DNA of 64,000 nucleotides from Hydractinia symbiolongicarpus (lineage: Eukaryota > Cnidaria > Hydrozoa > Anthoathecata > Hydractiniidae): contig NC_079877.1 of the NCBI RefSeq assembly GCF_029227915.1, positions 28,731,851-28,795,850 of the forward strand, given 5' to 3'. The notes beneath the pieces were generated by a model, which saw only the letters and a list, made by a program, of their open reading frames with translations, was not told the DNA's origin and did no database searches. Below, piece by piece: positions 4,600 through 58,504 of the stretch. Positions within the stretch are counted from its first letter, which is position 1, and every line of letters starts with the position of its first letter. Position numbers and translations under genes: made by a program.

Positions 4600-6950
4600 G
4601 CCTGGGAATTTTTAAGTTAATGGAATAGAAGGCATTTCTCACTTTGAAAGAGAACTGTTTCGAACAGAAGAGAAGATTTAGTAGGAAAAAATAAGTGCTT
4701 TTATTAAGAGGAGAAATGAGCCATAGGGGCCATCACACTATTAAACTGATCTGTCACACCAGCTACATGAAAAAGGGGAATTTTGGCTGCCTGGACCCAA
4801 GGCTGAGAACACTTCTTCAAATCATTTTTTTTTTGTTAATACTTGAATCCAGGTTAACACCATCAAATTTCAAAAGGAGATAAACGACTTATTGGGAAAA
4901 GAGTGGCATATTTGTGTTTACCAGCAAAAATTATATAATATAGGAAATTTTGAATACTTTATGATCATTAGAACAGGATTTTTGTAATTTAACCCAGATC
5001 CAAGAATACTTAACTTTTACTTCTTTTGTTATCAAATCTTTTCCTGAAGCATTTTAACACTTTTTTATTTTAAAAAACCATCTTTTAATTAAATAAAAAA
5101 ACAACAATAAATATATATAATTTTAAAAAAGTTGTGTAATAAGTATTGTCACCTCGACAAATGTAACGTGAAACTTTTAAACTAATTTCAGGTCCTTATT
5201 TTTAGGGTATATATATTTATAACGATTTCAGAGAAAACATACCTTTCAAGCTCTTCATGAACAAGGGCTGAATTTTTTATAGAATCCTTGTTTTCTAACT
5301 TTGAATCTGAAATATATATATTGTGCAGTTTTAGAAGAATTTTTGCTAATAATATAGTTTTTTTATTCTTCTGTGAGAGTATGATCATGAAATGTTTGTC
5401 TTCTGTCAACTGAAAAGTGGTAATTACGTGACATTCTGACCAGAAGACGTATATTCTGTATCCCTCATTACAACAACTATACATATTCTTCTATCAAGAT
5501 AGTATTACATGGAACGTGAATGCCTAACCACACTGACTAACTAATAAACTACAAAAGAGAATGTAGTATTTAAAAATAAGAAATTTAAAATTGATTTCTT
5601 TGCCATAGTAATATTAATTATATACAAGAACATACAAAAATGTACAATGATAAAAAAACAAAAATGGAGCTTTTCGTTTTTTTATTGAATATACATTCTT
5701 GTATGTTCTTGTATGTAATTAATATAAATTACTTGCTTTTTAAACATTCATTAATTAAAATTATAATTGACAACAGCAATTATTTGTTTTAGAGCTACAT
5801 AATGATGTCATAATTTCGCATAATTAACAAAACTTTAACTGACCTGTGCTCTGAAATTGACCCCTAATGGCCACCAATAATTTCCAATAACTCAGAATGA
5901 CCCCAATCAAGTACCAATGACCCTCAACCATTCACAATTACGTTCTAGTCACCAACAATCACTCTTGTTCATCTCTAGTGACTCATCAAAAGACATTTCC
6001 CCTAACAGAAATATCTAAGTCACTCGAAATGGCTCAAAAAGACTGTGATTTCAACTTTATGTTGAAAAGGAAACTTTGTGAGTTTGTGAATTTTTGCCAA
6101 TTTTTTAAAAATTCTTATTGATGTTACTTGCAAAATTAATCAAATTTCAAAAGAACTTATAGTTTTTTATGGTTTCCAAATGGTACAAGGAGTAAATTTT
6201 CGCAAAATTTAATATTTCTTATTTTTTATTAATGTTTTGTTGTTACACAATCTTCATTTTCTTTTTTAATAGGACTATTTCTGATCACTTCTTTCACTTG
6301 TTCAGGTTTTCCCCAGGTTAAGCACAATTTTTGAAGCTCGTTTTATACCACAATCTTGTTTAGTTTGATGATATATTTTAGCGTTTTTTTTTTGTTTTTT
6401 TTTGCAATTGTGTTTGATCTCGTTTAGCACATTGAATAACTTTGGCAGTTTTAAGAATATCCTCAAACTAGCCTTACTCATTTGCGCCTGTTTGTATTTT
6501 TTTCTTATGTTTTTTTTTTGATTTGGTGATACACTAAATTATCAGCATTTTAAAAAGAAAAAGAAACACTTTTTTAGATGACAATTTTTCCCAAATGAAG
6601 TGTTTATGTCATTTCTAGCATAAAATTTTTTACGTCAGGAATCCAGTAAAAAAATTTGCAATTTAAATAATGTGTCAATAATTTGCCATGAAAGTTTTAT
6701 TGTGGTTGTTTATTTGAACAGTGTTTTTTATTTGAAAGCAGGTTTGTCAAATATGGTATGTTGGTAAGGTATAAAAAAACCTTGTTGAAAACCTCTTGGA
6801 TAAACAATCAGGTGCTAATTAAAACTGTATGCCACAGCTAACTCTATAGGGAACTGTTTTTGCACTATTTGACCTTTGTGTGTGAAAAACATGTTTTACG
6901 TTTTTAAGTTTGTTTTTGTCTGTAGAGATTTTTTCTGACTCTTTTAATAA
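4600..6950. other. Intergenic sequence upstream of the SLC27-like gene
   Basis: I see no convincing gene. It includes the foldback at 5611-5726, a degenerate run of ACC/CCAATGACC-like words at about 5860-5990, and T-rich tracts near 6380-6530 that approach a splice-acceptor-like site at 6956-6957, just before the SLC27-like gene. Confidence 0.45.
5611..5726. mobile_element. Short foldback (palindromic) element
   Basis: The left arm (5611-5650) contains TACAAGAACATACAAAAATG. The right arm (about 5688-5726) is its near-perfect reverse complement, and the centre (about 5650-5688) is also nearly self-complementary around ATGGAGC. The whole 116-bp unit can fold as one long hairpin. No coding capacity; probably a small MITE, but no target duplication is evident. 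Confidence 0.6.
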
Positions 6951-6970
6951 CTTTCAGGGCTAACAAGTGG

Positions 6971-9900
6971 ATGTCATCCTGTCATTGCAATTTTTCATTA
7001 CAATCTAAACTCATCCGACACGTGCGAAAGAATATCAGTATGTATCGACTGGCATCGTGTGCAGCAGTGGCTGCTGCTGGTCCAAAGGTGTTAGGATTGT
7101 CATGGTATACTGCATTTGCTGGTAGCATTGCAATGTACCTGCTGACAGGTGGATGGAAATGGCTTAGGCTAGCTTATAAAACATTTGGCAGAGACTTTTA
7201 TTTTGGCAGAATAATATTGGGAGTGGAGCTAGGGATAAGAAAGATTGTGAAAAATAAACAGATGTTGGGAGACGTGTTTGCAGAGAAAGCTTTACAACAT
7301 CCTGACAAAGTGGTGTTTATATCAGCTGAAACTGGTGAAACACTTACATACAAGCAAGCTAATGATTTGGCAAATAAAATTGCGAACATCTTTTATGAAG
7401 CTGGTTACCGCAAAGGTGATGTTGTAGCACTAATTATGGAGAATCGTATAGAGTATATTCCCATTTGGTTGGGCTTGTCAAAACTTGGCGTCATCACTTC
7501 TTTAATTAATTACAATCTTCGCGGTGAGAGTTTAAAACATTGCATTACTGTTTGTGATTGCAAGTCAATTATATTCAGTGATGAACTGCAAGGAGCTGTG
7601 GAAGAAATAGCTCCTGATCTGAAAGTTGATTTTTATTATTTTGGAAATGAAAGCTCATCTATCAATAATGTTACATATTTAAAAACATTAATCGAAAAAG
7701 CATCAACTGTGCAACCACCAAAACCAGAGGATTTATCATTGAGCGATAAGATGTTGTTGATTTACACCTCAGGAACTACTGGTTTCCCAAAGGCTGCTGT
7801 TATACGGGGATCTAGATATTGTTTTATGGCGATGGGCGTAGGAAAAGGTATAGGAGTAACTGCAGATGATATTGCATACAACTCACTGCCACTTTATCAC
7901 AGTAATGGCGGAATTGCTTTATCAGGAGGTGTTTTTTTCTTTGGACACACAGTTGTTATTCGTAAGAAGTTTTCAGCTAGCAGATTTTTTGAAGATTGTA
8001 CAAATTATAATGTTACAGTGATCAATTACATTGGAGAAACTTGCAGATATCTGTTAGCACAACCAAAGGGACCCTTTGATAAGGCCCACAAAGTTCGTGC
8101 AGCCACTGGGAATGGTCTAAGGAAAAGTATTTGGGAAGAATTTCAAAAACGGTTTAATATTGGTTTAATTGGAGAATTTTATGGAGCAACAGAAGGCAAT
8201 GCAAACATGATGAATAGTGTTGGTCGAGTCGGTGCAGTTGGATTTAATTCTGTGTTGATACCGTGGGTTTATCCTATCAAGATTGTGAGAGTGGATGAAG
8301 AAGGTAACAATTTTTTTTTAAAGATAAGATTTTGACAATACTGAAGTAGTTCAAGCTTCGAAATAAGGAAGCAAAGTCAAATTGAGGCTATATAATAATG
8401 CGTTTTTTTACGCTATCTGTTTTTGCATAATAATAGCGCATTCATTGGACTAAAGGGCGTAGGTTTCTGTAAAGTCAAATTGGGGCTATATAATAGAATA
8501 TGTTTATATCGACGTGAACACGCTTTATACCTTCGAAAGAAGATAGTGCTTGTTCCGACTTTCTACAAACTCGTCCTTAACCTCCATTTTCTTATGAACT
8601 GTAATTATTTCCCAGAATGTGAACAATTTGCTGTGTTTCTTACAAAGGCAAAAAAAAATAATGCTATTGTTTTTTATTATTATATATTCATTTTATGTGC
8701 AGGCAACATTATCAGAGGAGCTGATGGATTGGCTTCAGAGGCTCAGCCAGGTGAAGTCGGAGAATTGGTTGGAAAAGTTCGAAATGATAATAGCTTGCGA
8801 CAATTTGATGGTTATTTAAACAAGAGTGCCACACAAAAGAAAATTGCATATGATATTTTTAAAAAAGGTGACTCAGCATTTATGACTGGCGACCGGTTGA
8901 TTCAAGATGAAGAGGGCTTTTACTATTTCCAAGACAGGACTGGAGATACATTTAGGTGAGTTGTCAACAACATCAGCACGTGACCGGACACCATGTTGGC
9001 TAAAAATTCTTGCTAAAATTAAATCTTGCTGAATTTTTATTTCTGACTAATTTTTATTGTCTTTCGATCTATACTGATATGTTGATTGGACACAATAACG
9101 TCGGAAATTTAGTTTTGTACGAGTCGTAACCGAAACCTTTTAGAAGTTTAAAAAAAGTTATACAGGTCAAATAATAAAAACTTCGCGTTTGAGGTTGCCT
9201 TTTTTTAAGCGGGTTTTTGTCGCGGCTTAATGTGTTAAATGTGTTAGAATTTTTTCCATAAAATTTTTTCCAGCTTTTAATAGTCTTAGATATCTGTAGT
9301 AAAACTACAGTATTTAATGTTTCCTTCACAAACTTTTTTACTTTGAAATATATTTTATTTTACAAAAAGACCATAAAACCAGGTCAGAGATTCTTTTTAG
9401 GGATGAAAGTTGTAGCAGGGCCGCTATTGCTAAGACGTTTGACTAATGATGACGTTAGTGTACTTTTTATATAGAGTACCGAAGAAAATGTTCCAAAAAG
9501 CTGAAATGTGAACTCCTTAAGTCATGGAGTTTCAATGGATTTTGAAAAAGTGATCTTTCGAAAATTTAAGTTTTTACTATCTCCAAAGATCAACTGTGAT
9601 GTCTTACTCTGATGTTGATCATTCCTATTCTACCTTTTTTTTGCTTAACTAGATGGAAAGGTGAAAATGTCTCCACCAACGAAGTTGAGAATGTGATCAA
9701 CAAAGCTGTCGATAATGAAATCTGTGTGTATGGAGTAGAAGTACCCGGTGTGGAAGGTAAAGCAGGAATGGCATGTATTGTTGATGCTGAAAAAAAGGTA
9801 AGGAAATACACATTTTTACACATGCATGCTTACTACTGTGCACGCGAGTCTTGCAAAATGATAACTGTACGCTAGAAAGGTTGAGCGAATGCGGTTAGGT

Positions 9901-13182: not shown

Positions 13183-13560
13183 CAAACTCGTCCCCAGTGC
13201 CTTTTGTCTCTTTTTTTTTTTTACTGAACGGCGTCGCCCTGGGATCAGTTAGTTTACTACAAACATAGCTCTATGCCAGAAACAACTCTGTGGTTCTCAT
13301 TTGAATGCGGCTTGTTGTGTTGAAAAGAACAGTTTGTTGCTTAACAGAAGCAAGGTTTAGTGTCGACCTTGTTTCCAGTGCTCTTTTGCGTCTTTGCAAG
13401 ACGTAATCAGCATTTTAAATGTAATCCACCATACAAATTCTCTGGCAGCTTTTTTAGTACACTCGTTACTTTCTTCCTTAAGATTTTATGCAATGCTTAA
13501 TGGCAAGACTCTTAAGCGGTGGTAAAAAAAAAGAGACAAAAGGCACTGGGGACGAGTTTG
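13183..13560. mobile_element. 378-bp MITE with perfect inverted ends and a 10-bp target duplication
   Basis: The ends are essentially perfect inverted repeats of about 37 bp: CAAACTCGTCCCCAGTGCC at 13183 and its reverse complement ending at 13560, both running into T/A tracts. The element is flanked on both sides by ATTAATTAAT (13173-13182 and 13561-13570), a 10-bp direct repeat that is itself palindromic. The ends resemble those of the 6.1-kb transposon (CAACCTCG..CCCAGG) and of other small elements in the window. The interior (13239-13523) is repeated outside the element at 13603-13890. Confidence 0.8.
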
Positions 13561-13602: not shown

Positions 13603-13890
13603 CCTGGGATCAGTTAGTTTACTACAAACATAGCTCTATGCCAGAAAAAAACTCTGTGGTTCTCATTTGAATGCGGCTTGTTGTGTTGAAAAGAACAGTT
13701 TGTTGCTTAAACAGAAGCAAGGTTTAGTGTCGACCTTGTTTCCAGTGCTCTTTTGCGTCTTTACAAGACGTAACCAGCATTTTAAATGTAATCCACCATA
13801 CAAATTCTCTGACAGCTTTTTTAGTACACTCGTTACTTTTTTCCTTAAGATTTTATGCAATGCTTAATGGCAAGACTCTTAAGCGGTGGT
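13603..13890. repeat. Direct repeat of the MITE interior
   Basis: About 288 bases, from CCTGGGATCAGTTAG to CTTAAGCGGTGGT, match 13239-13523 with only a handful of differences. This copy lacks the perfect ends. A weak left end (CCTCGTTTATTTCCTGGG, about 13591) and a weak right end (GCTGGGAACAAGGTT, about 13976) suggest it is an older, degenerate member of the same element family rather than captured host sequence. Confidence 0.8.
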
Positions 13891-20517: not shown

Positions 20518-21011
20518 AACCTCGTTCCTATGCCTTCTTTTCTCTCCGAAAATGAAGAGCAGCCTTGCAACTGTGATTGACTCTTTATTCGATTAGCTAT
20601 ACTATGTTATGCAAATCTTAGCCAGTGTATTGTGGAGGCTAACAGACTATACAACTGTTCTCGTGTCATAGATGAAACGGATAACATTAAATTCGTCCCC
20701 AGGGCATCTTTATTATATTTTTCGTCTCGGACGTCAAAAAGATGCAAGATGCCCTGGGGACGAAGTGGGGTTAACATTTAGATTAGCAATACATTAGAGC
20801 AGAACAAAGAAAAGGTATTTGTAAATTGTAAATTAGGTCCAAGACAATGTTAGAACATGAGGTTTATCTAATATATACAATATTCTCATGGCATTTAAAA
20901 AAAAAAATTAAAAAGTAACGAAAAAATACAATTTCGTGCCCAGACCTTTCCAGCTTTTTTTACCACGCGGTGGTTTTATTCGATGAGATAAAAAAATCTG
21001 GAAACGAGGCT
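20518..21011. mobile_element. Cluster of short CCTCG-family inverted-repeat elements
   Basis: Three traces occur. A lone left end is at 20518 (CAACCTCGTTCC). A compact palindromic element lies at 20691-20771, with arms TTCGTCCCCAGGGCATCTT and its reverse complement; it is flanked by TAACATTAA and TAACATTTA, which match at 8 of 9 positions. A degenerate element lies at about 20929-21011 (CAATTTCGTGCCCAG ... CTGGAAACGAGGC). The spacing and end sequences match the small elements at 24692 and 32333. Confidence 0.6.
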
Positions 21012-24600: not shown

Positions 24601-27600
24601 TTATTTACCAATCTTGTTCCCAGGGCTTTTTTCTTTTTCACTTTCTACCGCGAAAAAAGCTTGCGTAAAGTAATAAAGAAATTTTTGGGGCCAACCTCGT
24701 TCCCAGGGCTTTTTGTCTTTTTTTGACACTGGGCGAAACGCCGCCTAAACGTCAAAAAGTTTTAATATGCCCTGGAAACGAGGTTGCCTGGGGACGAAAT
24801 TTGTTGATATATTTGTTTATTTATTTTTGCCTCCCGTTTGTGTACTTTGTTTTTTGTTATAGTTTGTACAACTACCTTGGAAGATATTTTAACGAAATAT
24901 TATCTGCTGTTGAAAAAAATGAATTCAGCAAAGCTAAAGACATTCAGGTACTTGAGTAAAAAGCCTTCTTTCGTGTAAAACTGTAGCTTATCTTAAATCC
25001 TGACCAACTAGATTTCTAAGAAGTAAATAACATCGTTGTCTCTTCAGACTTAAGAAAACAAAATATAAGGTTTATTTAACTCAAATTATTTGAAATGCTT
25101 TCTAGATAAAACTTGCTATGGATATGATACCAATGCATGAAAAATACGGTATGTTTTTTGTGACCAACTGGAGTTTGACCATTTCTAATCCGTTTTTAAT
25201 TTCGTAGTGATTATAGTTACTTCAATAAATAATTTTTAGGTGGGCGTTCGAGGGGCGCGTTTATTAACGAACTTTTAAAATAACTTATATATGTTCACTT
25301 AGATAGCTTCGTCGTTTTAGAATTATGGATAGCTTGTGTAAACTTATCATTAGATATCTACTAACTTATAGTTTATCACTTCGGGGCAGTCTTTTTTTAA
25401 GTTTTTATTACTAATATACTGTATACCAACCTCGATCCCAGGACAAGTTGTCTCTTTTTGAATATCGGACGGCGAGACGAACATGGCCCTGGTGGAGGCT
25501 GGTCAAAAATCTTTGATTTTCGCAGATTTTTAATTAATGCACTCGTGTCTCGTTTATCAGGAATTTTATACTTCCTAGTCTTTGGTAAGCGAGTTTCAAT
25601 TTAATTATTAGGGTCTGGATTTTATCGTGATCGATGGAAATAGAACTTTTTAGTGAAGACTGGACCTTGAAGGCTTTAGGTCGTGATGGCTCTAACGTAT
25701 ATTGATATTTTAAAGCGAATATCTTTCGCATTAAATAATTACATTTTTCAGTTTTGCCTGAAACCAAAGCAAGTCATATGTTTGGAAGCTTTGTTAAAGG
25801 GGAATGATGTGGTGGCAGTTCTGCCTACTGGATTTGGAAAATCAATTATTTTTCATTTACTTGCTGATCTCTTCCCAGTTAAAAATGAAAAGAATATTGT
25901 TTTGGTCATCAGCCCTTTAACTTCCATTATAAATGATCAGGTGAAATACTTGAATGGGATTGGTTTTTCTGCTGCTGTATTGAACTTGGAACAGAGGAAG
26001 TTTGAGGCAGATGAGAGCTTGTTTGGAAGTAATGATGCAGTGGAGGACGACCATGATGGTACAAATATTACAATTGATTGTGGTATTAAAAACGGAGATA
26101 TTAAGATTTTATTTGCCCATCCAGAATCCTTTTTATCTGATCAAGGGCGTTCAATTTTAAAGAGCAAAATTTATCAACAAAATGTGGTAGCTTGCGTGGT
26201 TGATGAAGCGCATTGTGTTGAAATGTGGTAAGTAAACTAGCTCTAGCTGGCTATTCAAGAATATAGATTATAAAATTATAAAAAAACTTTGGTGGTTTTT
26301 AAAATTCATTTTATAAAATAATAATGAAGTGCTGTAGGTATGTATATGGCACATATCATATGAAATATTTAACAAAACTGAATATATACAGTATAAAAAT
26401 CTGTTATATATATATAGCTATATGTAATATATATATGAAAATATATAATGAAACTAATATAAACGAACATATCTTTTGACAAGTTGATAATATATATCTG
26501 TTGGTACATAATATAATAAATTGCTAATATATTAGCTATACAAAATTTTAAAAAAAAACACTCCATTTATATGTTTTAGGGGTGCTGAATTTCGTGAAGA
26601 TTTTGGAAAATTATGCACACTGAAAGCTCTTTTTCCAAGCACACCCATGATTGCTTTGACAGCAACTGCACCCCCAAGCAAAATAAAAAATTTAAAAGAG
26701 AAACTATGTTTCAGTCCTTATTGTAAGGTTGTTGTTGCAAATCCAAATAGAAAAAATATATTTTTAAAGAAATTGCCAAGACGCGGAAACAACTTTGGCT
26801 TAAGAAGCTATGACGATATTTTAGTTCCCATTGCTAAAGAGTTAAATAAATTACGGGATGATTATCCCATGACAATCATTTACATGAAGCTAAAATATTG
26901 TGGCTATGCTTATTCGTTATTTCAGCAAACAGTAACTCCAAATAACACAAAACTATTTTGTCAATTTCATGCTCCTCAAACATCTAGAATGAAGAAAGAA
27001 ATCTTAGATGAAATTACAAAACAAGATTCGTCTATTAGAGTTGTGTTTGCAACCACAGCACTCGGGATGGGTGTTAATGCACCAAAGGTTACTGAAGTTA
27101 TCCACATAACGCCTCCAGCCAATATTGAATCTTACATGCAAGAAATTGGTAGAGCTGGAAGGCGTGGGCAAAACTCAACTGCAACATTGTATTACAATAA
27201 TGCAGATATTGCTGTTAATAAAAATAATGTTGACGATAGCATGAAGTGCTTCTGCAAAACAGATCTGTGCTTAAGGAAATTTATTCTAAATTTCTTTGGT
27301 TTTAAAAAATATGAACAAGATAATTGTTGCTCAAATTGTACAAAGTCTAATTTGCTGATAAAAGAAACAACATTACCTTGCCGTGATTTAGTATCAGAAG
27401 ATGCTTTTAAATGCTTACAAACTGAGCTGAAAGAAATTATTGAAACTTGGAGACTTTCGCTATTGACTACCCTTGATCAAACTTATGAACTTCCATCTAT
27501 CAATAAAAATTTGGTTCAAACACTATTGAGTAAACTTCCATTTATAAGATCTAAAAATGATCTGTTATTTGAATATGATGTTTGGGATGATCAATATGCT

Positions 27601-30600
27601 ACCACCATATACGATAAAATAAATAAGTATGCCCCAAAGCATAAATAGTTTAGGTATATATATAAATATATATAAACAAACTTTAAAATATATAGTATAT
27701 AATATTCACTTCTGATAAAACAAACTTGTAAGATTAAAAGCACTCAGTAGACAGAATTTAAAAAAGTTCTACTTTTTCTGGAGGTTTGAATTATCAGCAG
27801 TCAATGTTAGCATAAATAATATATATACGTTTATGGAACTCACCTTGATATAACAGATTCTTACTTTATAAAATCCTAGGGAACATATAGCTGTAATTTA
27901 TGTTTTTCTAACCATTTTTGATGTTCTACAATATTCAAGTAACGTAGTGGGGAACGTTTAATATCAGGAAAACTTTGATGAGCTCTTCCAACAATGTGGC
28001 TAAATGGGCGAAGATTAAGCAGGTCGTTTGTCATCTCTTTTTCATCAGATATGGACTCTCGTTTAGAGTGTTGGACCGATGTATCATGAATATTTAGGTT
28101 TTGATCATAATTTTCTTTGATTTCTTTTACACCGCTCACAGCCTTGCACACTTTGCTAATGGATTTTATTGTTTTATTTGCTCCCATTCTTTGCACGATG
28201 TGTTTTCCTAAACGATTACTGATTTCTTGTGATAGATCATCTTCAATGTTTTGCCCTGCTCCACCTCTCCAATTTGAAAAGTATCCCCATTTGAACTCCT
28301 CAGACAATCTAGGTGTCAACAAGCATTCTACTTGTGCAATGCTTACAAACATCTCTATCGCATATTTACTGTATGCACCAAGTGATCGAAATATTGACAA
28401 CAAAAGCTTTTGATTGATGAGGTTTCTGTCACCATCTCCTTCTTTAGCTGTATCTTTCATCTGAAGGATGAGGACTGTTAAGAAAATGATACACAGACCG
28501 TAATTTTTCACGTGATCACCATCTTCAATTGATTTTTGGAGAACAAATTGATCGACAAAATTATCCAGTAAAGTGTTAAAATATTCTTTTTTTACCTCTT
28601 TGCTAGCATGCACCAAATTTTTAGGAAAGGGATGTCTTTTTGGTTCATCTTCCAATGTATCCATCTCCAAAAAAGACATTGCTGCTACAACAACATATGC
28701 TCTACCAACACTTAAAAACAGATCTTCACTACCTTCGTATGAGTCTAACACTTTACCTGGGGTTGAATTCCTTCTATTCATTTTCTCCCTGAAATACTTC
28801 AGTGTTCCTATCTGGTTGACAGAGTTTGCTGAGTAAAGCAGAGCAAATGAATATTGAAGTAAAGATGCCTTACAGTGCCACATTGCAGCTTTGAAAGGGG
28901 AACAATGCTCCAACCGGTCTGTTGGTGTGTGATTCCCAGCTAATAGGGATTTCGCACCAGCGAAACGGACTCGTGTCAGCTGATCACCACTAAACATTAT
29001 TTTCATGTCCTTCATTGGATCTTCGTTGGTAAACACAGTATGAGAATATGATTGACCTGGCTCAGCTGTGTTTTCAGGTAATGGTGTATTGTCGATAATT
29101 GGCATGTCAGTCAGTTTACCAGCCTTTTGGTATATCTCTGCAATCCATTTCTCATATGTTCGCAGGATCTCGACACAATCTGCATACCTTGCTTCATTTG
29201 CATCAATGATCGGCATTGAAATTATTGTTGACTTTTGGGACATTTTGTCACTAAATCTGTTGTCAATATGATCTGGGATTACTTTTTTTAAAAATTTAAA
29301 TTTTGGGAAAAACTCAACCAGAATTCTTCCAATCAGAACCTTTGTTGTCTGTCTGTAACATTCCCATTCTGCCATATTGACAGCAAATTTCTTCCTGTCC
29401 ATATATCGAATATCTCCAATTGGCTGGTTGTTTGGAAGATGGTCAAAAGAAATTCTGTTTGCGATTAGATTTGTTGCAAAAAGATGGTAATCTTTGTTGT
29501 CAACACCCTTTCTTGTCTCCACTAGTACTTTCAGATCCCAGTTATCGCCGCTTCCTCTGAGTGTTGTGTTGTTTTTCACTAAATCAATCGCCTTTTCCAT
29601 ATAGTGGCTTCCAATCAAGTTTAACAGATTTCCTTTCATCTTGTGTGACAGGCATACTCCTAGTTTGTTGAATCTTTCTTGTAACTAGAATATAAGTACC
29701 CAACATAGCTTAATTTAGTTGTTCGTTATGTTTACTTATATCCAAAAACATGTTTTAATGAAAAGTTTTAATATATATATATATACATTTAGAATTTTTT
29801 GGATAAATTTTCACCTTTCTATAAAAAGCAAAATAAGAACAGAAACTTTTTCTATTAGTCGGAGTTAAAATCTCAAGAGCATTTCCCATTATTTACATCT
29901 TACATCTACTGACTTATATATTACCTTTTTGCTGCATCCACCCTCAATGATCAAAACAGTGTTGACTCTCTGATATAAACTAAGTTCATGCCACCGCATT
30001 TGCATCAGTATGGAATATATGAAACAAAATTTGTTTTTAGTTTCAAGTACAATATCCTTTTGCCCACACACAGCACTAAGAACATCAACAAGTAATGGAT
30101 GATTTTCTTTGATCTCAGCCCACAGTTTTTCAATATTAAAATTTTGCATCTCTTCATACCCTTTTTTGTGTAAAATTGATGGTTTTTTTCTTGTGGCAAG
30201 TTTTTTACAGGAACTTTTCAAATTATTAATATAATTATTTTTCAAATATGTAGATATAGTTGGACAGTGGTTAATGATTGTATTTGCTACTACCATATTA
30301 TTATTGGATTTAAGCGCTGTTTCCAGTTTTAATTTTTGCATTGCTGGTATATTGTCTTCGGGAGAAACAATATTGCGTGGTTGCAGTTGTGTGGTAGGAA
30401 CTTCAGTTAACTCCTTGTTTTCAGCAAAGTTAAGTTGCTTTCTAGATTTTCCTTTTTCGTTCTTTTTCTCACTTTCAATAGTTTGATTTTTCTCGTTATG
30501 CGGAGACAATATGCCACGTTTGACAGACACGTTTTGTCGTAACTGAATTTGATTCAGTTGAACATTTTTCCGAAAGTCTGACATTTTCTCGACAAAGGTG

Positions 30601-32266
30601 ACACAAGACTGACATATAACAGTTGGAAGAGCATCCAGTTCCGTTGTTCTTAACCCACATGTTAGACTTATTTTGTTCTCAATGTTTTTGTTTTTTCCAA
30701 TATTGCTGAATATTTTTATAAACAAAGATTTTTGTTTTAATTTGGCACATAACCTGCAGAAATTTCCATCATTGGAAGTGTTACGAAAGTAAATCTTCTT
30801 AGGAGTAGCTGGCTTAGCCATTCTTCTATACCTTGAATAAAAAAAGAAAATTTTTATATTTAGCAATATAGATGTATATATATAAATGTATAGATAGCTT
30901 TGTGTTTTTATCTTATATATAATCCCTTACCATTTTAAGAGTTAACAGAATTCTTGCAATATGTAAAATCTGTGTAATTAGCATGGAAAATACATCCAAT
31001 CCTTTATCTGTTTTTGCGTTGATGTAGCTAACTGCGCTTACTTTGTATTCTGATGTTCAGTAGTAATAATAATAATAAATAACTAGTAGCTATCTATCTG
31101 TAACTATATATATGTCTACACTTCTTGTTTTATAACTAGCTAGCTCTAGACAATCTCTTGGTCAGTTGCTAATATTAATTTGAGCATAAGTAGCATGTAG
31201 TTACATACAAGCACATCTGGACTTAGAGTTAACTAGTTAAAACTAATTGAAGCCATAAAAGTTTCTTGCCAAAATGTATTTTTCAAATATTTTTTTCTGA
31301 TACAAAACATGTATGCACAGTGTCGGCCATCTTTATTGTTTACAGTTAGTTTCAGCGTGAATATTTCACGGACCGAGTGACGTTTTATCTTTCGCATAAT
31401 TAGGTGAAATTCTCGACCAATCACGGCTCGGAATAAAACCAGCCTCCTCCAGGGCCTTTTTCGTCAGACCTATCAATAAGCGCAGCGCCGATGAGAGACA
31501 AAAAGCCCTGGGAACGAGGTTGACTGTATACCTTAAGTGTATTCTAACTAATCGTCCGGTTAGCTAACTAAAATTAACAACTTATACATCAGTTTAATGT
31601 TTTAATAATCACACCAAAACTTATGTCGTAGAAGAAAACCCTACAACTACCGAGATTTCATATTAGTCGTCAATACTAATGTTTTGCCTATAAGTAAATT
31701 GAACAAATCTAACAAAGTCGTATGAATCTGCAGGTGGTCAATTAAACTTTATTAAAAAATTCTCTTCCCAGTCCAACTGTTAGTTTTTAGTTCTCACTTA
31801 ATAATTTCGCGACCCCTTTCTCCAATTTAACATTGCGTTCCTGAGGTCCCTGTTAAAATTGTATTTTATAAAAACATTTTGTTTCATTTCATTCCCAGGG
31901 TTTTTTACGCGTAGGAAATGGTTGACTGAATGCATAGAAGAGCTCTGGGTACGCAGTTTTGTATTGACCATACCACCTTATCGGCCTAAATTTCTGTCCA
32001 AATTTTCATCACCTAATTTTTACCACTAAGTCAAAATTAGTATGTAGCTCCACAAATTTAAGCCGATAATTCGATATATATTAACACAATTAATCTGGAC
32101 ACAATTGATTTTCGTTCTAGGCCAAAGCATCACCAAAACACTGACGTCATTGTCAGAAATTGCCATGGGTCCATCAAGATTGCCATTAAAGTCTTTAACA
32201 GTCGAAGAAGTAAAAGAAGTTGAGAAGCATCTGAAGGACTGTGGATATTTAGCTATGGATTTTTAG
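21668..32266 (+). CDS. NPL: N-acetylneuraminate lyase (sialic acid aldolase)
   Basis: Class I aldolase that cleaves N-acetylneuraminate to N-acetylmannosamine and pyruvate in the cytosol. Eleven in-phase exons: 21668-21723, 21801-21871, 22393-22480, 22554-22611, 22691-22766, 23302-23394, 23804-23949, 24393-24439, 24863-24947, 25106-25148, 32121-32266. They encode 302 residues (vertebrate NPL about 320). Visible: N-terminal GLVAATVTP, the pyruvate-binding GTTGE loop (residues 45-49), tyrosine region LYYHLPGFT (136-144), and the Schiff-base lysine in FCGMK (Lys168). The C-terminal GPSRLPLKSL resembles the vertebrate GPPRLPL. The glycine after GTTGE in vertebrates is Trp here (GTTGEW). Intron 10 is 6972 bp because it contains the 6096-bp transposon. 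AATAAA signals lie at 32267 and 32284. An AG four bases before the ATG suggests a 5' UTR intron or trans-splicing. Bacterial-type dihydrodipicolinate synthase is the relative to exclude; residue patterns favour NPL. Confidence 0.93.
24609..24803. mobile_element. Nested pair of CCTCG-family MITEs
   Basis: An inner 95-bp element (24692-24786) has mirrored ends CAACCTCGTTCCCAGGGC and CCCTGG..AACGAGGTTG. It sits inside an outer, more degenerate element with ends CAATCTTGTTCCCAGGGC (24609) and CCTGGGGACGAAATTTG (to 24803). Both lie in intron 8 of the NPL-like gene. I found no convincing target duplication for either. Confidence 0.65.
25418..25426. repeat. 9-bp target site duplication, left
   Basis: ACTGTATAC immediately precedes the CAACCTCG end of the transposon and is repeated exactly at 31523-31531. 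The next base after the right copy is C, so a 10-bp duplication cannot be strictly excluded. Confidence 0.88.
25686..27648 (+). CDS. RecQ-like superfamily II DNA helicase of the transposon
   Basis: Two exons (25686-26227 and 26580-27648) join in phase (split Trp codon) into 536 residues. Motifs in order: LPTGFGKS Walker A (46-53), VLVISPLTSIINDQV (Ia), ILFAHPESF (Ib), DEAHC (about 172-176) followed by WGAEFREDFG, MIALTATAPP (III, 204-213), MTIIYMK (IV), FATTALGMGVNAP (V) and EIGRAGRRGQ (VI, 369-378). A Cys-rich segment CFCKTDLC...CCSNC follows, as in the RecQ zinc-binding domain. No HRDC or clear winged-helix domain is seen, and it is shorter than cellular RecQ proteins. The DEAHC box is followed by VEMWGAEF where cellular RecQs usually have VS.WGHDF. 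It lies inside the inverted ends, so it is the element's helicase and not host RecQ. It presumably remodels DNA during transposition; no mechanism can be read from sequence. Confidence 0.92.
27649..27875. other. Short spacer between convergent transposon genes
   Basis: About 230 AT-rich bases separate the two stop codons. It would hold both 3' ends; I see no canonical AATAAA on the plus strand here. Confidence 0.4.
27876..30821 (-). CDS. Transposase with ZAD-like zinc finger and DUF6589-like core
   Basis: Two exons on the minus strand: 30821-29925 and 29684-27876. They join in phase across a 240-bp GT..AG intron into about 901 residues. Residues 22-73 form a C-x2-C ... C-x2-C pattern (FCRLC ... 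ICQSC), like the insect ZAD domain, a plausible DNA-binding or dimerisation module. A basic, low-complexity linker follows. The core starts near HPLLVDVLSAVCG and continues over the splice site (GGCSKK then LQERFNKLGVCLSHK). It contains SGDNWDLKV (about 344-352) and FSGDQLTRVRFAGAKSL (about 530-546), the pattern I associate with DUF6589 proteins and candidate acidic catalytic positions. The third acidic residue cannot be placed by eye. A start at 30866 is also open, but MAKPATPKK at 30821 gives a cleaner N-terminus. It is convergent with the helicase gene. Calling it the transposase is inference from position, size and family resemblance. Confidence 0.85.
31523..31531. repeat. 9-bp target site duplication, right
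   Basis: Exact repeat of ACTGTATAC (25418-25426), directly after the CGAGGTTG end of the transposon. Confidence 0.88.
31979..32072. repeat. Short inverted repeat before NPL exon 11
   Basis: TTATCGGCCTAAATTT at 31979 and AAATTTAAGCCGATAA ending near 32072 are inverted copies with one mismatch, about 60 bases apart. Possibly a tiny MITE of another family; no target duplication noted. Confidence 0.5.
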
Positions 32267-32332: not shown

Positions 32333-32411
32333 CAACCTCGATACCAGGGCCTGTAGCGTTTTTTGATATGAGGATGCCTCATATAAAAAACAGGCCCTGG
32401 GATCGACGTTG
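32333..32411. mobile_element. 79-bp CCTCG-family MITE with perfect 9-bp target duplication
   Basis: The ends CAACCTCGATACCAGGGCCTG and CAGGCCCTGGGATCGACGTTG are near-perfect inverted repeats, and the whole unit can fold on itself. It is flanked by TAATTTTGT on both sides (32324-32332 and 32412-32420). Outer bases match the left end of the 6.1-kb transposon (CAACCTCGATCCCAGG), and the duplication has the same length. It lies about 65 bases after the NPL stop codon. Confidence 0.88.
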
Positions 32412-53500: not shown

Positions 53501-56500
53501 TGATGGATGGAGTGAACTCTACGATTACTGGTTTGATTATGACTCGACGGATTTACATCCAGTGAATTGGTGTATGAAGACTGGTCATACGTTAGAACCA
53601 CCTCCAGGTAAGTTGTTTTATTGGTGATGTTTTTATATTTATCTCCATATGTTTTAAATTAAAAACTATGCTTCCTTTTCTGCTGTTTTACGGATTATTT
53701 TAAAATTTGAGAATGAAAATGAGAATGCAAATTTGTCAAAAATAGTTTAGTAGTGCAGAAATTAAAATTTTCAGAAAAGTAACAGTGTGATCGCATTATA
53801 AACTGCATTTTTGTATACTTTGAATGTCTCTTTCTGAATGTCTCTTCCTGTTTTAGTTGGAAAGGACTTCGAAGATGCACGTTCATGTGGCACGCCTGGT
53901 TGTCGAGGTATTGGTCACATCAAAGGTTTGAAGTACACGACGCACCACACGAGTTTCGGTTGCCCGTACACCAATCAAAATCTCCACCGCAGTACAGCTC
54001 CAGTTGTCGATCGCCTCGCACCGAACGCGATGACTGAAGAAACCTCCATATGCAACCGTATTCACAACAAAAAGTTTCGCAGCCCTGAACCTGGTACAAG
54101 TCTGTTTTTTATTACAAAATTTTATTAAAAATATAATATAACTGATTCATCACAAAAACTAACATATATACAACTTCATTGTTTATAAGAATTGATTTTA
54201 AAAGCTTCGTTACCGTAAAATTAGTTCATTCAAGCACTAAGTCGTGTGCTTTATTCGTTAATGCTGCTATGCTCTGCTTTACATTAAGAGTAAAGAGGGT
54301 GCGTGTGGAACTTACTCCTAAAAAAATAACATACCTTAAAGCTATATCTTTTTTAGTTTAACGTGTTTATGTTGCTTGAATTTTCAGTTCATAGAGGATG
54401 CAGATCTTTGCGGGATTGTTTTTATCCTATTTACTTTAAAAACTCATCGGTCGGGATTTGTTTTCTATTTGTTTACGTCTATGCATCACTCTTCTTTATG
54501 CTTCATTTAGATGTCTTTCCAGATTCAACAACGAAAGAAGAATCGAAAAAGACTCCGTAAGTACAAATCTTCTCATGTTTTCAACGCTGTAGAGTATAAA
54601 TTTTGAAGCTAAGGATAGTGCTGCCAAACCGTCTAAATTATGATATAAACAACCACCGTGTAATAAATGAAAATTTTGATGTTTATAAATCGTGATGTTG
54701 CTATAATTGAGTACTTCAGTTCTCAAAATAATCATATAAATAATCTTCTACTGGCTTGAACACCACGTGATCATAATGTACCGCATCAACCATACTTCTC
54801 GTTCCGTTGGGATACGCGTAACTCATCGGGTAGACATCTAATACGTTGAATCCAGCTTGACACATCTTTGAGGTGGCGTATGCGTTGTACAGTTCCACTC
54901 TCTAAAAGTAAAACGTCGATGAGTTTGTGGAGAGTTGTAGAAGCGCTTCATTTTAAAGAGGCATTGCTTAAAATTTATAGTGGTAATTTCGTTAAGTGGG
55001 AACAATACTTGAAAGAAAATATCTTTTTCTGTTCGCCTCGATTGTTTAGCTACGCTCCTCAGTGCTTTTTTAATTCTGGTGCAAGAAAAGATGTACGATT
55101 TTGGAGTACTTTATCACAGATGTAAACATCTACCAGTGACTGCAAGTAAGAGCTTACCGGTGTTGTGAAGAAGCGGATAGCCGCACCATGTCGTGCGTTT
55201 GAGTTGCGGGCTCCCCACCTCCATTTGTTGATAGCTGTCGTCGTCTTCCAAATAACCATTCCTCTAAAGTACTTCTCTTTGAGCAGGTTTATTATTTCTA
55301 ATATCATTACCTTGAAAGTTTCAAACGGAATGTCCATAGCATAATGCAGTCCATAGTTCAGTAGTAATACACCCTGTTCGTCCAACTGATCATTAGTGAG
55401 TACTCTTTTTAACTCGTTAACTATTTTTTGTACGTCGAAATCTTTATCGTCAGTTTCCTTGGAAGCCTTTGTTAGGTTTTTATCGGTAATTTCGTATATC
55501 CAGTTATAGGTTTGTTTACACTGCAAGAACTGCTCTTTACACAACACTTTGCTACTGACTGATCGATAGAAAAAATCGGCGATCGAGTCACCAAAAATCC
55601 AAAATGTACCACTCCCCCTTCGATGCTTCGTGATAGCTTTTGTTTTCAGTGGTTCTAAAATAAAAGGGTATTTTCGAAACAGATGGAGTTGGTATATTTC
55701 GTGTTTAACACAACAAGAAGCGGTTTTATAATAATTAAGAATTTGTTTCTAATGTACAAGTTAATTGTATGGTTTCTCGTGAACTTTATCGGAGTATATA
55801 AACGATGAAAGAATATCCATACTAAACCCGCTAACCCTAAAGATTTCATGCTTAAACTATTTATGTTAGTAATTCTTATGGCGAATATTCTCATTTATTC
55901 TGATTAAATCATTCAGAGTATGTTGCAGAGGTGCAATAAATTTATTTTCTTTACCGTCAATGTACTGCATCCATTCATTCTTGTTATTCCATCGTCCAAA
56001 CCCATCCCACATGAGACATGAGTTCTCTGAGGATATGTCTTTTAGAAAAGGCTTTAACTCTGCAAAAAAGAAATGAATCCGAGTATTTCACATAAAAGTT
56101 TTTTTTTATGTTCTTAGTAGTTAGTCTTATAAAATATTAGAAAAATTTTTTTTTCACATACAATACAATGTTTCATTAAGAGTATGTTTTGACTAAAGCT
56201 TCTCGTCATACCTTGATATACAGAATAATTGGTTTCCAACACTTTAAAAGTGAGATTTTTAGAATATCGTTCTTCGAGAAATGGTTTCTCGTTGCCTGGC
56301 AGAACAGCTGGTGACTGATGCTTCCCTTGAGCGTTGCCTAATTGAAGGATAATTTTAAATATGTTAGTAGTTTAAAAGGACATGAAAAACTACTAGAATC
56401 TAATTGGAATAGAAATACCTGAACAAACCTTTAATAAACCACTCTGGTGGAGGGTCTTTATGTCCGTCGCACAAAGTGTAGTCGAGCCACAAATCAACCC

Positions 56501-58504
56501 GATATGAACCAGGCTCCAGAATCAAAAAACTAGCTTCGTAAGAACCATCTTGGTTATCAACTAATGTTACGGCAACCGACGACTCTCCGTTCACATGAAC
56601 TCTCCACGTATCTCCTCCGACAGTTTTTCTTGTGTTCATCACACTGAACGTGTTGATGAAAATTCTGCTATACTGTCCTGCCGGTTGGATGTCTAATATA
56701 ACGTCACTGTGCTCTGTTGAAGTGATCCGAAAGGGATTTCTGTCGGGATAAAATGACGACCACGTTGTATTGTTTTTGCATGGTGCTAAAATTTTTTTAT
56801 AGTTTATTCTCATGTCGCGCTGTAGTGTCCAGTACTTTTTAAAATGATGAATTTTTTTGTCATTGCTGTTGAAAGTTGTTGACGTTTGCGTTGTTACATT
56901 CTTTAACAAACTTTTCCCTGTTCTGTCTTTAAACCGACTTTCGCCATGAAAGACGTTGATAAAGGCCGTTAAAACGTTGCCAATAAATATTAAATGCACG
57001 GTGTAACATAGGCCGTATATGCCGACAGCAGATAGTACCGCCAGTCGTAATCTTCTCATCTCATCATGCTGCCATGTTATTCAAAGTTTAGTTTAAATTC
57101 TTGCCGCAATCGAATATGCTGCATGATTCCAAAACATGCCGAAAGCTCTTTAGCACGTACCTGCCATGTTTAAATGCTTCACTTATCTTTTGATAGATCG
57201 ATTTATTTATTTATTGTTGTTTCTAATTTTAGATTCGGCCGTGCAACTGGTAAGCTGCTAAAGAAACGACACCGACTTTCCGACACACCTCTCAACAACC
57301 ATGATAAGTACGCATTATATTTGTATTTACGCCCACTCGAGGTGGAACATGCTGTAGTGGGGGGTGCCATACGTACTGTTAAAATATAATGCGTGCAGAC
57401 TGTCAAATGGAGGGCATTATTTCTAATTGAAACGATTGAATGATTATTTTTTATTAACGTCTCCAGATCTGCTGTTAACTGTTCTCAGTTATTTCAGGAC
57501 TGGCGTGAAGAAAAGAAAAAGAAGAAGAAGTGATGAAGTATCATCTTGTGCGTGTGTATTTGTTACTTTAGCTATCAAAAAATCCTTATATTTAGCAATT
57601 TTAATGCTAAAATATTGATTTTTTCAGCAACCAGTCCTTCTGCACATCATATATACGACTCAAAACAACCACACAAGCCTATTCCATCTACACATATACC
57701 AGCTGGTCATTCGTTGTACTTACAAGGAAAGGCTCTTGTCAGTAAAGCCATACCATGGTCACAAGATGATGTGGTTGAATTCTTGAAACGAATAGGACAC
57801 GAGGATCTTGTACCGTGTTTTGTAGATAACGTAAGCATGCGTTTTAATATTTTTGCAACTATACGTGTGTTTGAAGAGCAGAAAGTTTCGCGGGAAAAAA
57901 GTGTCGCGAGATTAAAAAACGCAAAATTTAGGGCATGAACATTTGTGAAAAACCTTTTTTTGCATATCTTCCAACAAATATTCTTGCGAATCTTTTTTTA
58001 CATTTTTGACGAACAGGAAGTCGTTTCAGTCATTTGATGTCATTTCTGCAGTCATTTCAGTATTTTGTTGCTTGTTGCCCAGATTCAACGTAAGGGTTAA
58101 CACACGAACAAAGAACAGAACGGAGAATACGTTCTCTGAAATTTGAATTCTATTTCGAGCGGAAGTTGAAATTGTTTTGCCTCTTTGCGCACAGGGATAG
58201 CAGAAAGACCAATCAAATTTTCAGTATTTTGAATAATTAGCAGAACGTCCAATCAAAGTTTGTGATTCTGCGAAATTGAAAGGAATGTCTTTCGGAAACT
58301 TCTTCTACTACTATAGCCTCTCTTTAATTCTCGTATTGTAAGAAACCTTGGAAGCGAGGTTGTATATATTTCACATTTGTTATCTTCTTTTAGCAAATCG
58401 ATGGACAAGCATTACTTCTTCTTAGTCAGGCTGACTTGGTGCACCACTTAAAGTTAAAACTGGGACCTGCTTTAAAGATATACAGTGAAATATCCAAGCT
58501 TTGA
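47572..58504 (+). CDS. L3MBTL: L3MBTL-type MBT chromatin protein (FCS finger, 3 MBT, C2HC, SAM)
   Basis: Nuclear reader of mono- and dimethyl-lysine histone marks that compacts chromatin. Exons: 47572-47872, 48163-48426, 50292-50420, 50844-51026, 51113-51255, 51370-51469, 51650-51732, 52058-52310, 52672-52986, 53138-53220, 53382-53607, 53857-54093, 54511-54556, 57233-57307, 57498-57547, 57628-57830, 58394-58504. They join in phase, 933 residues. Domains: acidic/basic N-terminus with WKNGVGYLPGSNLKFR; FCS zinc finger (CETCGCYG ... GRFCSQRC, about 277-305); MBT1 (378-484), MBT2 (490-590), MBT3 (595-693); C2HC finger (CGTPGCRGIGHIKG ... HHTSFGCPY, about 700-735); C-terminal SAM (WSQDDVVEFL ... 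KIYSEISKL). MBT2 keeps the methyl-lysine cage (VDRKNP, FDEWDDQYDYW). Order matches Drosophila l(3)mbt and L3MBTL1/3/4. The frame is open from ATG 47572 back to an AG at 47511, so an upstream coding exon may exist. Exon 14-15 donors are uncertain. AATAAA at 58652. Confidence 0.93.
54716..57059 (-). CDS. NXPE: NXPE family protein (neurexophilin and PC-esterase domains), nested antisense
   Basis: Five minus-strand exons: 57059-56429, 56337-56212, 56059-55955, 55654-55158, 54901-54716. They join in phase into 514 residues, a normal size for NXPE proteins. An N-terminal hydrophobic stretch (about 5-28, LAVLSAVGIYGLCYTVHLIF) looks like a signal anchor, implying a Golgi or secreted type II protein. 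A neurexophilin-like beta domain follows (DTWRVHVNGESSVAVTLVDN, DGSYEASFLILEPGSYRVDL). The PC-esterase part has the GDS motif (FGDSIADFFYRS) and a C-terminal Asp-x-x-His (MVDAVHYDH), the expected catalytic residues. Some family members act as sialic-acid or polysaccharide acetyltransferase/esterases; the substrate here is unknown. The gene lies entirely within L3MBTL intron 13 (54557-57232) on the opposite strand. The exon 1 donor was chosen at AAAG|GTTTG because the alternative GTATTT donor breaks the frame. Confidence 0.92.
58337..58362. mobile_element. Lone CCTCG-family right end
   Basis: ACCTTGGAAGCGAGGTTG in the last intron of the L3MBTL-like gene resembles the right end of the MITE family. 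No matching left end was found nearby, so it is a relic or coincidence. Confidence 0.35.

Follow-up and report, generated by a model that had tools for sequence, protein, structure and literature searches.

We analysed a 64-kb stretch of the genome of the hydrozoan Hydractinia symbiolongicarpus (contig NC_079877.1, positions 28,731,851 to 28,795,850), hereafter called the window. Its positions 25427-31522 are occupied by a helicase-bearing DNA transposon of 6096 bp, which is filled by two convergent genes: a helicase gene on the plus strand and a putative transposase gene on the minus strand. The boundaries proposed in an initial annotation of the window proved exact. Both ends are directly adjoined by the 9-bp sequence ACTGTATAC (25418-25426 and 31523-31531), an exact match as had been claimed. 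These two copies are its only exact occurrences in the window, where 0.47 would be expected by chance. In a control that allowed the same freedom of one base in either direction, an exact flanking repeat of at least 9 bp was obtained in 5 of 20,000 random position pairs. A 10-bp duplication, ACTGTATACC, with a left end that is asymmetric by one base is equally possible; the two lengths are indistinguishable because the C forming the first base of the element also stands after the right-hand copy.

The inverted ends of the element read CAACCTCG(A/T)TCCCAGG, with the termini CAACCTCG...CGAGGTTG. When the left terminal inverted repeat (CAACCTCGATCCCAGG..., 25427-25455, plus strand) is compared with the reverse complement of the right one (CAACCTCGTTCCCAGG..., 31494-31522, minus strand), 15 of the first 16 and 24 of all 29 bases are identical, so that the inverted ends of the initial annotation are borne out. 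Further inside, a second pair of inverted repeats (25476-25503, plus strand, and 31438-31465, minus strand) is complementary at 25 of 28 positions. That an unrelated helicase gene and an unrelated DUF6589 gene merely happen to lie between fortuitous repeats is a reading to which we give hardly any credence: the exact flanks stand at symmetric termini, inner inverted repeats accompany the outer ones, and a miniature element nearby has nearly identical ends plus a duplication of its own (see below).

The helicase gene consists of exon 1 (25686-26227, plus strand), an intron of 352 bp with GT-AG borders (26228-26579) and exon 2 including the stop codon (26580-27648), which carries RecQ-like motifs and a cysteine cluster. 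Owing to this intron, the gene is not uninterrupted, and the initial description of two uninterrupted genes has to be corrected in this respect. The spliced product of 536 amino acids contains the Pfam domains DEAD (E = 1.4e-17) and Helicase_C (E = 3.6e-13). It is identical at 532 of 536 residues, without any gap, to the database protein "ATP-dependent DNA helicase RecQ-like" of H. symbiolongicarpus (P0074), which supports the splicing and, on the strength of this one protein, assigns the window to Hydractinia or a very close relative, in line with the cnidarian host suggested earlier. In P0074 we located the helicase motifs I, Ia, II, III, V and VI as well as the RecQ-type cysteine cluster, and the window protein is identical at these sites; the helicase can thus be regarded as RecQ-like with its main motifs, as had been proposed. 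P0074 also matches the PDB structures of RecQ, BLM, RECQ1 and WRN. It narrowly misses the curated NCBIfam cut-off for recQ_fam (216.5 versus 219.8 bits), and RecQ_Zn_bind stays below the Pfam cut-off in the window helicase (20 versus 25).

On the opposite strand, the transposase gene extends from the start codon at 30821 to the stop codon at 27876. An intron of 240 bp (29685-29924, GT-AG), across which the related proteins P0001 and P0003 align without a gap, separates exon 1 (29925-30821) from exon 2 (27876-29684; 602 amino acids and the stop codon), and the spliced protein has 901 amino acids; intron and product are those of the initial annotation. Its ZAD-like and DUF6589-like parts both pass the curated Pfam cut-offs, zf-AD with E = 4.4e-9 (residues 22-96) and DUF6589 with E = 3e-37 (residues 404-838). 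Exon 1 encodes the ZAD zinc finger, with the four cysteines of the ZAD fold, followed by a linker and a helical region according to the structural model of P0001. In a sequence search against solved structures, the ZAD of the window gave weak matches only, the best being 7po9 (E = 0.0048). Exon 2 encodes DUF6589 with a predicted RNase H-like DDE core, and a comparison with NCBIfam gave no family for this core or for P0001.

The predicted RNase H-like fold, together with the invariant residues D346, D533 and E786 (numbered on the spliced protein), indicates that the DUF6589 protein is probably a DDE-type transposase. In the fold comparison, the top structural matches were the P element and Hermes transposases with moderate Z-scores, a result of the second-look aligner applied to the top 1000 chains of Foldseek, of which 998 could be aligned. 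Foldseek itself gave no match at E<=0.001 on PDB or on BFVD; the helical-channel entries heading its PDB list are spurious (TM-scores of 0.07-0.09). We also tried to place the catalytic residues of known transposases through the aligned ranges. The glutamate came out roughly right for Hermes, RAG1 and the P element, and the first aspartate roughly so for Hermes; since the first aspartate of RAG1 did not fit, such arithmetic is no test of catalytic residues.

Taken together, the locus very probably harbours a structurally complete AcademH-type transposon, with the DUF6589 protein as its DDE transposase. AcademH is a lineage of Academ, reportedly introduced by Kojima in 2020 (Mobile DNA 11:15); the element is ordinary in kind. 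According to passages referring to the lineage in PMC10045372, AcademH transposons encode a helicase and generate duplications of 9 or 10 bp, the duplication length being tied to the helicase, in contrast to AcademX with a nuclease and duplications of 3 or 4 bp. The AcademH assignment of the initial annotation is therefore supported in part: the RecQ-like helicase, the probable DDE transposase, as judged by its predicted fold and invariant acidic triad, and the exact duplication of 9 (possibly 10) bp agree with these passages. The name rests here on anatomy, i.e. on a match of features, not on a tree, and autonomy of the element is a possibility.

As an unlikely alternative, the element might be a DDE transposon with a helicase that belongs to a different superfamily, such as Kolobok with RecQ, or to an unnamed lineage near Academ. 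Two observations speak for this reading. No solved Academ structure was among the structural matches listed, which P element and Hermes lead; and, as far as the relevant passages of PMC9587614 go, KolobokH likewise combines a transposase with a RecQ helicase, as does a rhodophyte Kolobok whose RecQ lies on the complementary strand. Against it stands the Pfam scan of the transposase, in which zf-AD and DUF6589 exceeded their cut-offs and neither a Kolobok-type domain nor a THAP domain appeared, along with the published AcademH pairing of a helicase with 9-10 bp. Moreover, Kolobok elements duplicate TTAA at their target, unlike the 9-bp ACTGTATAC found here.

Somewhat less improbable is that the element is AcademH by descent and no longer mobile, or that its helicase has been retained as a host gene, a view that agrees with the AcademH identity and conflicts with present activity, which we infer. 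Among the candidates scored there was no near-identical transposase, and the helicase annotated in Hydractinia has the form of an ordinary gene model. On the other hand, the duplication is exact and both genes are open together. The helicase cluster represented by P0074 comprises 17 member sequences; it fits several copies and hints at them without proving them.

The initial annotation had considered the joining of a ZAD-like finger to a DUF6589-like core a possibly undescribed architecture. We scanned nine relatives, picked mainly for length and spread and not at random. Five of them contain zf-AD and DUF6589 together, namely P0001 and P0041 from Hydractinia, P0050 from Clytia, P0003 and P0038. 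DUF6589 without zf-AD occurs in P0072 (Haliotis), P0195 (Patella) and P0214 (the fungus Pilatotrama), and the shorter P0071 has zf-AD only. Most remaining relatives span roughly exon 2 only; the alignment (A2) comprises 47 of 73 relatives after redundancy filtering, with P0071 excluded as a fragment. Presence in five further proteins makes ZAD-DUF6589 a recurring architecture. As to its being undescribed, limited literature searches, a weak test, listed no paper with a report of a ZAD or zf-AD joined to a transposase in its title or the start of its abstract, nor was DUF6589 named in the literature searched. A scan of viral contigs with the transposase alignment yielded 36 pattern matches and no relative. 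P0001 and a RecQ-like helicase (P0080), each recorded with 35,016,489 bases as its longest contig, possibly belong to another AcademH element on one chromosome.

Smaller elements with similar ends are present in the window. At a tolerance of three mismatches, the terminal motif CAACCTCGNTCCCAGG is present at 16 places of the window, two of them being the ends of the large element, as compared to 0.32 expected. Of 17 terminus pairs examined (spaced <1.5 kb, main element included), three have exact flanks of at least 10 bp, given a freedom of one base, whereas the other 14 have none of at least 6 bp. A miniature element of 79 bp (32333-32411) is flanked by the 9-bp duplication TAATTTTGT (10 bp are possible) and shares 14-15 of 16 terminal bases with the large element; it is the best candidate for a passenger of the large element. 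An element of 378 bp (13183-13560) has perfect inverted ends of 37 bp (CAAACTCGTCCCCAGT...) and 10-bp flanks, ATTAATTAAT. These flanks are weaker as evidence because ATTAATTAAT is palindromic, and they may belong to an inverted repeat of greater length. A third element of 81 bp (20688-20768) with diverged ends has the 9-bp flanks GGATAACAT/GGTTAACAT with one mismatch. Its left end differs from the motif at four positions and hence lies outside the 16 places; its flanks were not counted in the test for exact duplications. For the 378- and 81-bp elements, 11-13 of 16 terminal bases match the large element, so both may have been mobilised by another autonomous relative.

About 280 bp of the interior of the 378-bp element recur roughly 365 bp downstream, beyond its ends (13238-13523 versus 13603-13890; 98% identity in three stretches), perhaps as a tandem or broken second copy. 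Within the 200 bp at 24609-24802, the terminal motif is matched four times (up to four mismatches), which suggests nested miniature elements; no exact duplication was found in this cluster. Elsewhere in the window, a long open frame at 6926-8335 (plus strand) contains an AMP-binding enzyme domain (E = 2.7e-54) and is probably a host gene, and an open frame at 56400-57080 (minus strand) contains a borderline Filamin repeat whose 26.9 bits are exactly the cut-off.

For the transposition of the large element we propose that the RNase H-like core of the DUF6589 transposase would bind and cut both inverted ends and join them to a staggered target. Repair of a 9-nucleotide stagger would then leave ACTGTATAC on each side. 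ZADs dimerise in fly transcription factors, and in like manner the ZAD would most likely bring two transposase molecules together, which may help in pairing the ends. For the RecQ-like helicase, the probable role is the opening or remodelling of DNA at the target or the ends, or else a part in gap repair.

More tentatively, the element may represent a cnidarian AcademH sublineage in which the ZAD of the transposase pairs the ends and DUF6589 is the AcademH core with a fold like that of P element, hAT and RAG. In that case, it would be plausible that transposases supplied or carried ZADs as animals evolved. For DUF6589, a Pfam family of "unknown function", the predicted structure is evidence of a DDE transposase core, and a ZAD appears here as part of a transposase. 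The element is a candidate autonomous helicase-bearing transposon in a cnidarian laboratory-model genus, which makes the suggested role of the helicase in duplications of 9-10 rather than 3-4 bp directly testable.

Compared with the AcademH transposons reported so far, helicase-encoding DNA transposons of animals and fungi with 9- or 10-bp duplications, the element differs in the ZAD at the N-terminus of its transposase, which the passages citing the lineage do not mention. With the transposases of the P element, Hermes (hAT) and RAG1/Transib it shares 6-11% sequence identity among the structural matches listed, and no sequence-profile match was obtained. The ZAD itself is chiefly familiar from zinc-finger proteins of insects; usual ZAD proteins carry C2H2 fingers after this domain. 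Unlike Drosophila M1BP, Grauzone and Pita or rabbit ZNF276, the protein described here has its ZAD in front of a probable transposase core.
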